A DNA stretch of 64,000 nt from Chitinophagaceae bacterium C216 (GTDB lineage Bacteria > Bacteroidota > Bacteroidia > Chitinophagales > Chitinophagaceae): the NCBI GenBank assembly GCA_028485475.2, contig CP144143.1, positions 558,001-622,000 of the forward strand. Reading direction: 5' to 3'. This document shows positions 37,775-41,497 of the stretch, in pieces. The notes below the pieces were generated by a model. It worked only from the letters and a program-made list of their open reading frames with translations. It ran no database searches and was not told the DNA's origin. The position numbers and the translations under genes were made by a program. Each line of letters begins with the position of its first letter. Position 1 is the first letter of the stretch.

Positions 37775-39346
37775 TTAAGGTGTTTCTTCGGACGGGTCCA
37801 GGCTACGCTTACTTTTCTTGTATTTGTCATGAATGACATCACGCATGGGCCGTCCTTCCACTTTACTTTCCAGCCATGAAATAATGTCCAAATAAGCAAA
37901 GGAACGCGTCTGGAAGCGGTCGCCCTCCAGGTGTTTTACTTTTTGGAGAAAGTTTTCAAATTCCGGTCTCAACTGACGGGTCGAAAACTTGAAGGAGTTG
38001 CGCAGGAACCGGAACATCTCCTCTTCTATAACGGTGAGGTTCTTCATGCGCGACATATAACGAAATACCGAGCGCGTGAGTGAATCCATCAGCTCCAGAT
38101 TGCCCAACTCATAATGCGCCAGCAGGTGCATCAGTCGCGAATAACATTGCAAATCGGTACGTAAATCGGAAGAATCGTTGATAATCCGCTGCAAATAATC
38201 AATACTGGTACTATAATCCCCCGACAGGTAGTACAACATGGCAATTTTGTACGTAATTACCATAATGCGGTGCTTGTCGAGGAAAAGCTCATACTCTTTC
38301 AGCTTCTGCTCAATTTCCGGAATCACCTTGAGGCCTTGCTCGCAAAGCCCCGTAATATTGTAAAAATTAATTTTGGCGCTGGCAATATATACAAAGGATT
38401 GAACCGTAAAATTTTCATTGTCTTGCACACGTTTCGTTTGTGAAAATGCTTCAAACTCTTTCAGCACACGGCTTAGCTCGCGGTAATTTCGGAGGTCGAA
38501 ATGCGCATTCAGTAAGCTGTGGTAGCCCCGAATAAAGTGGCCAGTTTCCACGCGCTGCATGTTGGGCATTTCCTTAAACAGATCCACCCATTTCTGGGCA
38601 TAACGATAGTACATCAAAAAGTCCTGACGTATAAACGCATACCAAGTATAGCTTTGATAATAATACAGCCGCTCGTAGAAACCCTTTTGCTCGGCAGAAC
38701 CCGTAGGCAGCGACTGTCTGAAAAACTTCTTCACCTTGTTCTCTTCCTCCTCATTCCGCGCGTGACCATTGGCGATAAAGAAGCCGTACATCTGCAATGA
38801 CAGATTAGACAGACGGGTAATCATATCTACCTTTTGGTTGGCTTCGTTAGCCTCTTCGGAAAGCGCTTCTATGCGGCTCTTGAAGGTATCAGTTACGTTC
38901 AAAGCCTCAATACGTTTTTCCAGCGATAGAATGAGGGGTAAAAAGAAATACTTCTGATTATTACGAGCTACCTCCTTGGCCTTGTCTATAGCCCGAAGGC
39001 TTTGGAAAAATAAACCCTTTTTATAAAGAATATGGGCCGTATCGAATAGCTCATTCAGCTGAAGGTCAAGGCTATCATTGCTTTTCAGTAGCCGAAGACT
39101 GGCTAGTACTTCCTTGTATAGGTGGGATTTCAGATTAGCCAGCTGCGGTTTTGTAACATTCTTCATTTTTTTCAGCAACACCGCTTCATCATAAGTGCTC
39201 ATCTTATCAAGAATATCAAAGAGTTTGATAATCTTAAGGTCCTCATTTCCAGAACTGCGGGTGATATAGAGCTTAAAATGCCTTTTCTCCGCCTTTTCTA
39301 AAGAGCGGATCAGCTGAAACAGAATGTCACTTGGTTTCTTCGGCAT
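37775..39346 (-). CDS. conserved helical protein of unknown function
   Basis: A 523-aa cytoplasmic protein with no signal peptide or membrane helix. It is nearly all alpha-helical with loosely TPR-like units (KAEKRHFKLYITRS, LFDTAHILYKKGLFFQSLRAIDKAKEVA, YKIAMLYYLSGDYSTSIDYLQRI, LHLLAHYELGNLELMDSL). The N-terminal 70 residues (SDILFQLIRSLEKAEKRHFK) look like a separate helical bundle. The C-terminus ends in a basic tail KYKKSKRSL. I recall similar proteins across Bacteroidota without a function. It has an AT-rich upstream region and is the last protein gene before the RNA-rich segment. Confidence 0.8.
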   Translation of the reverse strand: MPKKPSDILFQLIRSLEKAEKRHFKLYITRSSGNEDLKIIKLFDILDKMSTYDEAVLLKKMKNVTKPQLANLKSHLYKEVLASLRLLKSNDSLDLQLNELFDTAHILYKKGLFFQSLRAIDKAKEVARNNQKYFFLPLILSLEKRIEALNVTDTFKSRIEALSEEANEANQKVDMITRLSNLSLQMYGFFIANGHARNEEEENKVKKFFRQSLPTGSAEQKGFYERLYYYQSYTWYAFIRQDFLMYYRYAQKWVDLFKEMPNMQRVETGHFIRGYHSLLNAHFDLRNYRELSRVLKEFEAFSQTKRVQDNENFTVQSFVYIASAKINFYNITGLCEQGLKVIPEIEQKLKEYELFLDKHRIMVITYKIAMLYYLSGDYSTSIDYLQRIINDSSDLRTDLQCYSRLMHLLAHYELGNLELMDSLTRSVFRYMSRMKNLTVIEEEMFRFLRNSFKFSTRQLRPEFENFLQKVKHLEGDRFQTRSFAYLDIISWLESKVEGRPMRDVIHDKYKKSKRSLDPSEETP

Positions 39347-39511
39347 TAAAACAAATTTAAAGTTCTTAATAACAAAAACAATAATTTATGGTAGATATAA
39401 TGGAAGTTTTCCTCAAAATTGGCTGAAATACAAGGGTTTCAACAATGAAAACTGCTGTTTGATATGCGAATTAAGGCGAAAAGATGTAAATGAAAGCATA
39501 AAAACACAGCG

Positions 39512-39519
39512 TAAATTTG
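39512..39519 (+). promoter_or_regulatory. -7 box (TAAATTTG) of small RNA copy 1
   Basis: An exact TAnnTTTG lies 73 bp before the conserved module of copy 1. No -33 TTTG at 19-21 bp spacing. Confidence 0.45.
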
Positions 39520-39525
39520 TGTTGT

Positions 39526-39652
39526 GATTCTGATAAACGAGCGTACAGGCAGCAAAGAAAAAGAATAAGGCAAGACTAGGATTCAAGTTTTTTCATATGG
39601 CAAGCAATCGTTAGAGGTCGGTCCGTTTCTACGGAAAGACCTTTTTTGTTTT
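39526..39652 (+). ncRNA. sibling small RNA, copy 1
   Basis: Predicted transcript of about 125 nt; the start is estimated from the -7 box. Its 3' module (39585-39652) is shared with copies 2 and 3: AAG, a run of six T, CATATGGCAAGCAATCGTTAG, then hairpin AGGTC-GG-TCCG/CGGA-AA-GACCT (39615-39642) and a T tract. It differs from copies 2/3 by three substitutions, one in the loop and two facing each other across the internal loop. The 5' segment is purine-rich and unlike the other copies apart from TAGGATTCAAG. No protein gene follows closely, so it is not a 5' leader. Confidence 0.6.
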
Positions 39653-39670
39653 GGGAGTTTTATCAGCTTT

Positions 39671-39700
39671 CAAAATAAAAAATCCGGGATGAAACCCGGA
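39671..39700 (-). terminator. minus-strand terminator beside the decayed RNA copy
   Basis: TCCGGG (39683-39688) and CCCGGA (39695-39700) form a hairpin; on the minus strand it is followed by TTTTTTATTTTG. It would end a minus-strand transcript running through the decayed copy at 39715-39760. Confidence 0.6.
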
Positions 39701-39714
39701 ACAGTACATTTACC

Positions 39715-39760
39715 TTTTCATAAGCAGGCAATCGTCAGAGGCAATCAATTAGAGGTCGTC
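39715..39760 (+). repeat. decayed fourth copy of the small-RNA module
   Basis: TTTTCATAAGCAGGCAATCG, then TCAGAGG, matches TTTTCATATGGCAAGCAATCG, TTAGAGG with scattered changes. A second piece, GCAATCAATTAGAGGTC, follows directly, as if the core had been duplicated. The terminator hairpin is missing. Confidence 0.6.
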
Positions 39761-40061
39761 ATAAACATTTCCCACGTTCAGAAAATGTTCGTTAAAAACA
39801 TCTAAAACGATGTTTTTTATTATTCGGTTCTGCTAAGGTATAATAATTTTTGATATCAGTTAACTTTTTTTTAATGCTTTTTTTCAAAAAAATGGCATTT
39901 TTTCTTGTTTTAGATCAACATCCCCCCTTGTGAACAGGTGGTTGGACATAATTAAAGACACTGCCTGAAATACAATACAGGACTGATTTGTGGGTGATTT
40001 TTTAAGGGTTTGATGTCTAAAAATTAACATTAACTTATTAATACGCACACTGTATCCGTTG

Positions 40062-40069
40062 TATCTTTG
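40062..40069 (+). promoter_or_regulatory. -7 box (TATCTTTG) of small RNA copy 2
   Basis: An exact TAnnTTTG 47 bp before the conserved module of copy 2. The -33 position has only TTATTA-like sequence. Confidence 0.5.
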
Positions 40070-40075
40070 TGTAAC

Positions 40076-40178
40076 AAAAGCGCAAGGCTTTTAAAGATAT
40101 TAGGATTTAAGTTTTTTTCATATGGCAAGCAATCGTTAGAGGTCAGTCCGTGTCTACGGAAGGACCTTTTTTGTTTTT
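40076..40178 (+). ncRNA. sibling small RNA, copy 2
   Basis: Predicted transcript of about 100 nt. A 5' hairpin, AAAAGC (40076-40081) with GCTTTT (40087-40092), precedes the shared module (40109-40178). The module is identical to copy 3 apart from one extra T (seven instead of six). Terminator hairpin 40140-40167: AGGTC-AG-TCCG, loop TGTCTA, CGGA-AG-GACCT, then TTTTTTGTTTTT. The predicted start is estimated from the -7 box at 40062. Confidence 0.62.
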
Positions 40179-40385
40179 AGCCCCTTCTCTTCATTTTGTT
40201 GAAAAATATCTTTTTTACATTATTGCCGGTTTCGAAAGCAGCATTGGACAGGGCATTTTTCAGTGTATTATTCTGTTTAAATAAACCTTGGACATAAATA
40301 ATAAAAACTCCTAAAACACAGTACTGTATTGGCTTTTATAAAAATATTAAGAGCTTGAATATATCAAAATCAAGCAGAAGTTGGT

Positions 40386-40416
40386 TTTGAGCAGGCCATA
40401 AAGCGTGGTAACTTTG
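40386..40416 (+). promoter_or_regulatory. full promoter of small RNA copy 3
   Basis: TTTG (40386-40389), exactly 19 bp, then TAACTTTG (40409-40416): a complete match to the Bacteroidota consensus TTTG-N19-TAnnTTTG. Confidence 0.7.
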
Positions 40417-40422
40417 TGCCAG

Positions 40423-40560
40423 ATTCAACACCGAGAGAAAGATAAAGTGCAAGAATCAGGTGTAAGCGAATCTACAAGAAAGAAGTTTTTTAAGTTTTTT
40501 CATATGGCAAGCAATCGTTAGAGGTCAGTCCGTGTCTACGGAAGGACCTTTTTTGTTTTT
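40423..40560 (+). ncRNA. sibling small RNA, copy 3
   Basis: Predicted transcript of about 135 nt with the best promoter of the three. The 5' segment folds on itself: AGATTC (40421-40426) with GAATCT (40468-40473), and ACACC (40428-40432) with GGTGT (40459-40463). The shared module occupies 40492-40560, with terminator hairpin 40522-40549 and T tract. Sequence outside the module is unrelated to copies 1 and 2. Confidence 0.65.
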
Positions 40561-40756
40561 GGAACTTTGCTTGAAACAACTTAGCCAAGAAATTAAGCCC
40601 ATCTCTCCATCTACCCATAATCTTAACATAAAGATTTATAATAGAAGCCATATCCGCTTTTACTTTTTAATAGTGCGCATATCCCCTAACCCGAAGGCCC
40701 AGATACGCTAGAAAAGATACGCTTTGGGTAGAATTTCGACCTCTTTAATAATAGCA

Positions 40757-41497
40757 TTAAAAATTAGTGCCTACTCTTATAAGAATGCTTCTGGGAATAA
40801 GGGGAACGTGAGTAAAGGATTGCACTAATGGAGTATTGATAAAATGACTATAACCTTTTTCGTAAGTTATATTGGAAAACACAAGACCGCAGCTCCATTT
40901 TTTATTGATATTATAATTCGACTTTAACTCGAAGAAACTGAGATTATTTTGATAAGAAGAGAAGATATTATTTACATAATTCTCTGCAAGAAGCACTATG
41001 TTCATTTTTTTATCAACCATGAATGTCTGCCCAAGTGCATTCTTGATGTTTAAAATTTTACCGTTAAAACCGCTTATCGGTTTCATCTGATTTGAGTAAG
41101 AAAAATTAAGATTGGCATTGCTATAAAACTTAATATAGTACTTTTTAGCCCAATTTCTTTTCAAGGAAAAATCAAGCTCCAGTTGTGTGATTTTATTATT
41201 ATATATCTGCTCATTTATTTTACTGTATCTGTTACCATACCTGCCCGATATGGTAATATTCATCAGCGAAGAAATTGATAGCAATACTCTTTAAATATCG
41301 AGCGATAAGTTAATATCAGATGAGACTTTGTTTATTAGAGAATCTCGACTGAGAAAGAATGTATTATTGAGAAAGGAAGTATTTAAAATGCTTTTAAAGT
41401 AATGATGATAAGAAAAATAAACTCTATTACGGTTCCCAATCTTTTTTGACTCTATCAGATTTGAATAGGCAAAAGGCCTACAACACCATATTTGCAT
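40757..41497 (-). pseudogene. remnant of an outer-membrane beta-barrel/TonB receptor-type gene
   Basis: Two blocks in the same frame (41497-41294 and 41284-40757) are split by one in-frame TAA at 41293-41291; reading through gives ...INLSLDI-stop-RVLLSISSLMNITISGRYG. The sequence is strand after strand of aromatic/polar alternation (ITISGRYGNRYSKIN, YYIKFYSNANLNFSYS) ending PRSILIRVGTNF, the closing strand of an outer-membrane barrel. There is no signal peptide, plug or plausible start upstream, where another frame (ENYITICKYGVV) seems to continue the barrel, implying a frameshift. It is very AT-rich with many Asn/Ile/Lys/Tyr, unlike its neighbours, suggesting foreign origin and decay. Confidence 0.6.

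Follow-up and report, generated by a model that had tools for sequence, protein, structure and literature searches.

An apparently undescribed family of sibling small RNA modules in Chitinophagaceae, with candidate anti-core elements and virus-borne copies

Sibling sRNAs are sets of more than one highly related sRNA in the same bacterium, and no heading of a review devoted to them names the Bacteroidota (PMC4211561). Two described systems serve as points of comparison here. The alphaR8 RNAs SisA-D of Caulobacter are reported as siblings, each with a Rho-independent terminator and a shared short core that is single-stranded, opposed by a sponge RNA, CrfA, that is complementary to the core; one copy is anchored beside a conserved gene, and the promoters are unrelated (PMC12559287). 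The FopS/GibS RNAs of Bacteroides are reported to be multicopy, with 12-15 members per genome, one of them derived from a 3' UTR, and their sequence also occurs in phage (PMC11697453). According to the same source, the partner protein of FopS is RbpB and not Hfq, the seed lies at the 5' end and pairs near susC start codons, and the family, described in Bacteroidaceae, has been deposited in Rfam. The Bacteroidota small-RNA literature that we found concerns gut Bacteroides.

Our analysis of a Niabella locus produced a module family that is real, extends throughout the Chitinophagaceae and seems not to have been described before. By type it counts as a sibling sRNA family. Its unusual features are a conserved hairpin loop, an anti-core hairpin in certain 3' UTRs, a probable antisense sponge inside the tandem array, and virus copies. 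By analogy, the logic of the family resembles that of both SisA-D/CrfA and FopS.

Like the alphaR8 system (PMC12559287), the family has siblings with a shared core and terminator, unrelated promoters and a conserved gene beside one copy, and a candidate complementary element, predicted from its promoter-like block and terminator, may correspond to the sponge. Unlike alphaR8, whose core is the 10-nt UUUCCUCCCU and whose Alphaproteobacterial members are Hfq-assisted, the present family has a different core of over 20 nt and occurs where no Hfq was found in 20 genomes searched; moreover, the proposed sponge lies within the tandem array and virus copies exist. FopS (PMC11697453) shares with the family its phylum, its multicopy nature, a 3' UTR-derived member and occurrence in a phage. 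In FopS the seed occupies the 5' end, whereas the Niabella core directly precedes the terminator and is accompanied by a conserved hairpin loop and anti-core elements. The FopS description includes a single-stranded segment before the terminator; here the evidence is divided, the core being open in the consensus fold and six of its bases being paired when copies 2 and 3 are folded singly. FopS pairs near susC start codons; our start-region test, run over genes in general, was negative. FopS is in Rfam and our locus has no Rfam match, although the Rfam copy searched may lack the FopS model.

The window, by which we mean the whole 64-kb stretch of DNA that was analysed, contains three near-identical modules of 68-70 nt on the plus strand of a gap without genes (Table 1). 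The gap is bounded by the 523-aa gene listed there and by an ORF at 40757-41284, also on the minus strand. Within 39346-40757 no convincing ORF was found, and one 67-aa ORF overlaps the edge. The initial annotation had described these copies and the differences among them, and both descriptions are borne out by direct reading: copies 2 and 3 differ by a single T (seven versus six after AAG), and copy 1 carries three substitutions, all within the hairpin. A repeat finder groups the copies as family D1. In a search of the whole genome (3.34 Mb, one contig) at E ≤ 0.001, they are the sole matches. A covariance model, for which family members including copy 1 served as input, gives them E-values of 1.1e-17 to 2.1e-18. 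The genome has several highly similar predicted sRNA genes, as siblings do, here in three copies. The covariance model also detects a degenerate fourth copy, a core without hairpin, at about 39715-39757 (E = 0.0016); the initial annotation had overlooked both this copy and the minus-strand terminator-like hairpin next to it. Neither tRNA genes nor Rfam matches, the latter a check that the initial annotation had proposed, were found in the 64-kb window, and a permissive Rfam scan of the gap returned sub-threshold matches only.

Table 1. Positions of the modules, promoter-like boxes, candidate antisense elements and neighboring gene in the window
Feature	Position	Strand	Basis
Divergent 523-aa TPR-type gene, recurrent neighbor of the sRNA	37775..39346	-	distant NCBIfam BT2802 family
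-7 box TAAATTTG of copy 1, without TTTG 19 nt upstream	39512..39519	+	sequence
Module copy 1, core and terminator hairpin	39585..39652	+	covariance model, 79.0 bits
Linear core of copy 1	39590..39617	+	alignment and covariance model
Terminator-like hairpin TCCGGG-TTTCAT-CCCGGA then T6, downstream of the anti-core block	39683..39700	-	consensus scan
Anti-core block, complementary to two degenerate cores; proposed sponge pairing region	39727..39757	-	
Promoter-like block TTATACCTTAGC, imperfect relative to TAnnTTTG	39832..39843	-	identical in 6 Niabella genomes including the window's own
-7 box TATCTTTG of copy 2	40062..40069	+	sequence
Module copy 2	40109..40177	+	covariance model, 76.2 bits
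Linear core, identical in copy 2	40115..40142	+	
Promoter-like TTTG-N19-TAACTTTG of copy 3	40386..40416	+	sequence
Module copy 3	40492..40560	+	covariance model, 76.2 bits
Linear core, identical in copy 3	40497..40524	+	

Each copy resides behind a TAnnTTTG box, as had been annotated, and this is the -7 consensus quoted for Bacteroides (PMC7366714). Copy 3 is the sole copy with the complete arrangement: its -7 box occupies 40409-40416, and a TTTG at 40386-40389 lies exactly 19 nt upstream. Across the family, TAnnTTTG occurs 28-140 nt upstream of 93 of the 135 modules outside lipoprotein 3' UTRs (100 shuffles gave a mean of 8.65 and a maximum of 17) and upstream of none of the 38 modules inside such 3' UTRs. 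This division suggests that some modules are sRNA genes standing alone and others the 3' ends of mRNAs. The view that the window holds three separate short transcription units sharing a 3' domain is supported at the level of predicted units. Each copy would be transcribed on its own into an RNA of about 105-145 nt that ends at an intrinsic terminator.

The variable 5' segments seem to be dispensable. They are unrelated to one another within the window, as noted initially, but this does not hold in other Niabella species, where siblings in tandem are often almost identical in their 5' segments (two rows of locus L014, for instance). A third sibling type in the genus starts only about 20 nt ahead of the core, and 11 of the 38 lipoprotein-linked modules begin no more than 12 nt after the stop codon. 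The -7 box of copy 2 is followed by a small GNRA-like hairpin that, by eye, seems to vary in step in five other Niabella loci.

The module consists of UUUUCAUAUGGCAAGCAAUCGUUAGAGG, then a hairpin with a variable stem and a conserved apical UNUCYA, and usually a U tract. Its invariant core spans 23-28 nt, with 22 invariant columns in an alignment of 38 sequences, which were chosen from 68 non-redundant modules for similar hairpin length. In these sequences, six of the seven predicted hairpin pairs have both sides changed with pairing kept. A UNUCYA-type loop, by a slightly wider pattern, is present in 154 of 173 genome modules and 17 of 20 virus modules, and a T tract follows 170 and 14 of them, respectively. 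The UNUCYA loop, by the narrower pattern, was found in only 2 of 204 other terminator-like hairpins of the GTDB loci, so core and loop seem to be conserved for more than termination. A terminator scan of the gap missed all three module hairpins, whose stems contain mismatches. In the consensus fold the core is unpaired. However, when copies 2 and 3 are folded as single sequences by RNAfold, the U tail pairs with six bases of the core; thus, the core may not be fully single-stranded. A micro-ORF within the core, ATGGCAAGCAATCGTTAG (MASNR-stop), was attractive because the relative G146 has TAA where others have TAG, and was rejected, since several virus copies lack the stop and genome G020 lacks the ATG.

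The 38 aligned modules, from hosts and viruses, were used to build covariance model R1. Such a search in Bacteroidota had been suggested by the initial annotation. Of the 147 Chitinophagaceae genomes sampled, 106 have the module at E ≤ 0.01, with 1-11 copies each. The best E-value is below 1e-8 in 101 of these genomes and between 2.5e-4 and 0.0063 in the remaining five. In a sample of 296 Bacteroidia, R1 finds the module in five of eight Chitinophagaceae, and among the 288 genomes outside that family three reach only E 0.0067-0.0083, which is about chance level. An exact-pattern search allowing one mismatch in 395 Bacteroidota gave 10 matching genomes, all Chitinophagaceae. At least 120 stretches of GTDB contigs match, and the 80 listed among them are all from Bacteroidota, mostly from Chitinophagaceae. 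With copy 2 as a DNA query (E ≤ 1), 51 of 59 genomes match, including all 16 other genomes of the genus at E 2.7e-24 or better; outside family f1, matches are at noise level (best E 0.024). PLSDB plasmids gave no match at E ≤ 1, and INPHARED two weak partial matches (E 7). For the comparisons that follow, 193 modules were kept, 173 from genomes and 20 from viruses, after removal of duplicates and of modules with less than 200 nt upstream, less than 80 nt downstream or more than three mismatches. The literature on small or noncoding RNA of Chitinophaga and Chitinophagaceae yielded no paper on this family within a scope that left out most subscription journals and all preprints, and of six core and anti-core strings searched in full texts, one occurs in each of five papers, none of them on this subject, judged by title and the start of the abstract.

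Two genomic addresses recur among 134 partly redundant loci with 785 ORFs. At one, found in 55 loci, the module is divergent from a TPR-type gene at a median distance of 229 bp. At the other, found in 33 loci, a sigma-factor-like gene is nearby (one member tested matches Sigma70_r2, E 2.1e-5) and the module lies in the 3' UTR of a small lipoprotein-like gene, so named by eye from its start, MKKLLFVLAIGAFAAC.... Genes for prephenate dehydratase, aminotransferase and prephenate dehydrogenase follow in 14-18 loci. In all, 38 of the 173 genome modules reside in the 3' UTR of the lipoprotein-like gene. By eye, a GTATTAA block recurs upstream of this small, D/T/K/A-rich gene in loci L030 to L151.

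Between copies 1 and 2, at about 39830-39675 of the window, we predict a minus-strand antisense RNA that contains the anti-core block and ends in its own terminator-like hairpin. A terminator scan gives one minus-strand terminator where shuffles give 1.0, and with the scan at chance level it is conservation in six Niabella genomes that carries the argument. The double-core block of the window is present in 14 of 17 Niabella genomes; a 15th match, in G016, sits elsewhere, and locus L440 was omitted from the comparison since it matches something other than the anti-core block. Among the 14 loci compared, six, including that of the window, share the minus-strand TTATACCTTAGC, a 30-nt anti-core and the terminator hairpin, and the other eight keep the short block alone. 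Calculated duplexes of the antisense RNA with the window copies reach -57 to -62 kcal/mol (2, 0 and 3 of 200 dinucleotide shuffles were as good), and in five congeners the duplex with the module reaches -46 to -56 kcal/mol versus minima of -35 to -40 in 100 shuffles. Two observations speak against the antisense reading: the minus-strand -7 box is imperfect, and outside Niabella the double core occurs in sense orientation, without hairpin, within the 5' part of the TPR-linked sRNA, according to an alignment of 31 of 45 intergenic regions. A core-like match lies within 190 nt upstream of 41 of the 193 modules. As an alternative, the anti-core block was considered as a leader of the TPR-type gene. 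This candidate was rejected: in 13 of 45 loci a -7 box precedes the start codon used by 4-6 nt, which probably leaves the block outside the TPR-type mRNA.

A second kind of anti-core element is found in lipoprotein 3' UTRs. GCUUGC, the complement of GCAAGC in the core, or a close variant of it occurs in the last 60 nt before 24 of the 27 lipoprotein-linked copies that begin 13-110 nt after the stop codon, two of these 24 rows (L142 and one from L030) being doubtful. The string is present at none of the 11 lipoprotein-linked copies with a shorter 3' UTR and at none of the 135 other modules. A narrower form of it, sought in the last 100 nt, precedes 23 of 193 modules, compared with a mean of 2.56 and a maximum of 5 in 50 shuffles. 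GCUUGC is usually in a hairpin loop whose stem sequence changes between loci, a comparison that omitted 3 of the 24 rows (the distal L030 row, L133 and L142). Summed over 20 chosen sequences, the inner stem scores 179 versus 117 ± 12 and the outer helix 334 versus 249 ± 11, and neither score was equalled in 500 mononucleotide shuffles; the sequences include relatives and so are not independent, and L147 and L150 are nearly without the inner stem. These are 20 of the 24 rows (class B), two L030 rows, the near-duplicate L133 and L142, which has no true anti-core, having been left out. The minimum-energy fold pairs GCUUGC with the core in all six sequences tested, although the L115 centroid does not. 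Stability of these six anti-core 3' UTRs is not exceptional relative to shuffles (z -1.1 to -1.8). The module, its covariation and distribution, and the anti-core elements with their complementarity to the core are computational observations.

Viruses also carry the module. In IMG/VR, 38 contigs contain ATATGGCAAGCAATCG; among these, a 26-nt search with up to five mismatches gives 24 matches in 23 contigs, most with a hairpin behind them, and a looser pattern gives mostly chance matches, from which further real ones were picked partly by eye. R1 recognizes each of the 35 records selected from these pattern searches. In the virus modules, the bases after AAUCGUU vary. Ten of 20 well-placed virus modules lie within 20 nt behind the stop codon of an ORF, and for seven a tRNA gene is no more than about 150 nt away; some lie immediately before a tRNA and have no T tract. 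Among ten large ORFs from ten module-bearing contigs, four match phage protein families. In contigs L170 and L172 the stop codon of related small proteins is followed 3 nt later by the module, and L161 appears alike by eye.

We lean, at slightly less than even confidence, toward a multicopy family of base-pairing sRNAs that share a core, are independent of Hfq and have anti-core RNAs as brakes. The working part would be the constant 3' module, in which a linear core precedes a terminator hairpin whose UNUCYA loop is fixed. This core would pair with complementary RNA, and anti-core RNAs would set its activity: in Niabella, the minus-strand antisense sponge from between copies 1 and 2 would restrain it, and in other genera the loop of the lipoprotein 3' UTR could pair with it either in cis or in trans. 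Hairpin and U tail would terminate the RNA and probably stabilize it independently of Hfq. Transcription, sponge action, targets and the direction of regulation are inferred. The chief rival is a protein partner for core and loop, which could coexist with pairing, and to which the fixed loop and the sharing with viruses are equally well suited. In this alternative the module would be a 3' protein-binding tag, read through its core and UNUCYA hairpin by a Chitinophagaceae RNA-binding protein that stabilizes or localizes sRNA, lipoprotein mRNA, tRNA and phage mRNA. Such a tag is a serious but rather unlikely explanation. It would account for the invariant core and conserved apical loop, for one module behind very different upstream genes, for the exact core kept with differing stems in virus contigs and for the repeated core of some sRNAs; anti-core loops with supported stems and the antisense element, however, point to RNA pairing, double cores exist without the hairpin, and neither of the two candidates examined, the neighbor gene and Hfq, provides the protein.

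The initial annotation proposed that the constant part either recruits a protein or stops transcription. Its role as a stop signal is consistent with the T tract behind 170 of 173 genome modules, with the module's position at the ends of mRNAs and with its position after a tRNA-like 3' end in L077 and L045 (by eye), but the constant part looks like more than that, since the core recurs without the hairpin and is mirrored by anti-core elements. Nor does termination need 22 invariant bases or a fixed loop, which only 2 of 204 other terminator-like hairpins possess, and 6 of 20 virus copies, some directly before a tRNA, have no T tract. We therefore regard a merely unusually conserved intrinsic terminator, or an RNA-processing element, as improbable. 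The annotation's further model, in which variable 5' segments choose the targets and the constant module is a scaffold, is more doubtful still. It draws on the three differing segments of the window and on the small hairpin that the copy-2 type keeps, by eye, in five further Niabella loci, but siblings in congeners are often near-duplicates in their 5' parts, one type has only about 20 nt there, and lipoprotein-linked copies have an ORF instead, some of them (11 of 38) within 12 nt of its stop codon. Shared segments, the short type and the 3' UTR copies together make the variable segment an unlikely carrier of a common function. A mobile repeat or phage attachment site could explain several copies per genome and virus copies with an identical core, yet it is hardly credible given covarying stems, the modules' own promoter boxes, the lack of any plasmid match, and two recurrent addresses (55 of 134 partly redundant loci at the TPR-type gene and 33 at the sigma-factor-like gene); the family shows no sign of the mobility that the annotation had named as a possibility.

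Searches for targets of the favored base-pairing core gave negative or weak results. For pairing of the core with start regions, 21 of 40 shuffled cores were as good in mean energy and 4 of 40 in the top 5%. Lipoprotein start regions have no special complementarity to the core, and that of the rRNA operon is not above shuffles. Besides the modules, the window's own genome contains 11 anti-core near-matches with up to three mismatches, versus 6 for a reversed control. No Hfq was detected in any of 20 genomes searched, this one included, by a search whose control was positive in 5 of 14 known genomes.

Phage-derived AgvB also interferes with a core-genome sRNA, but it mimics the sRNA's target, whereas in the present case the virus copies are similar to the module of the sRNA itself (PMC4104026). 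It is conceivable, although we judge it speculative and unlikely, that the family embodies an Hfq-free code of its own, in which one core acts as sRNA seed, as a 3' UTR switch with its own anti-core loop and as sponge target, and that phages, apparently of the same hosts, have copied the core into tRNA arrays and downstream of protein genes, where it would tap the host network or jam it. If the base-pairing account is true, relatives without Hfq would have a separate family-wide system with a likely sponge and virus-borne copies. A ready covariance model, an invariant core longer than 20 nt and a natural tandem array within a small genome make pairing, sponge action and phage mimicry directly testable.

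The TPR-type neighbor was also considered as the protein partner. Its protein matches BT2802 with E 5.7e-38 and 131 bits, against a cut-off of 550, and is predicted to form a helical TPR superhelix, with weak matches to LGN and Rap-type proteins; the neighbor-protein set comprised 20 of 28 full-length proteins and the window's own. This candidate was rejected: no function could be assigned, and relatives occur in genomes without an R1 module (for example, G022 and G030). The TPR-type protein has at least 25 matches in G043, and G020 has two paralogues with a module beside each. In Chitinophagaceae contigs L077 and L045, the module directly follows what appears by eye to be a tRNA-like 3' end. 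In many TPR-linked loci, the stretch from the start of the TPR-type gene to the promoter of the sRNA also contains a conserved block around TTGGCATGATAAAAT, possibly a regulator site.
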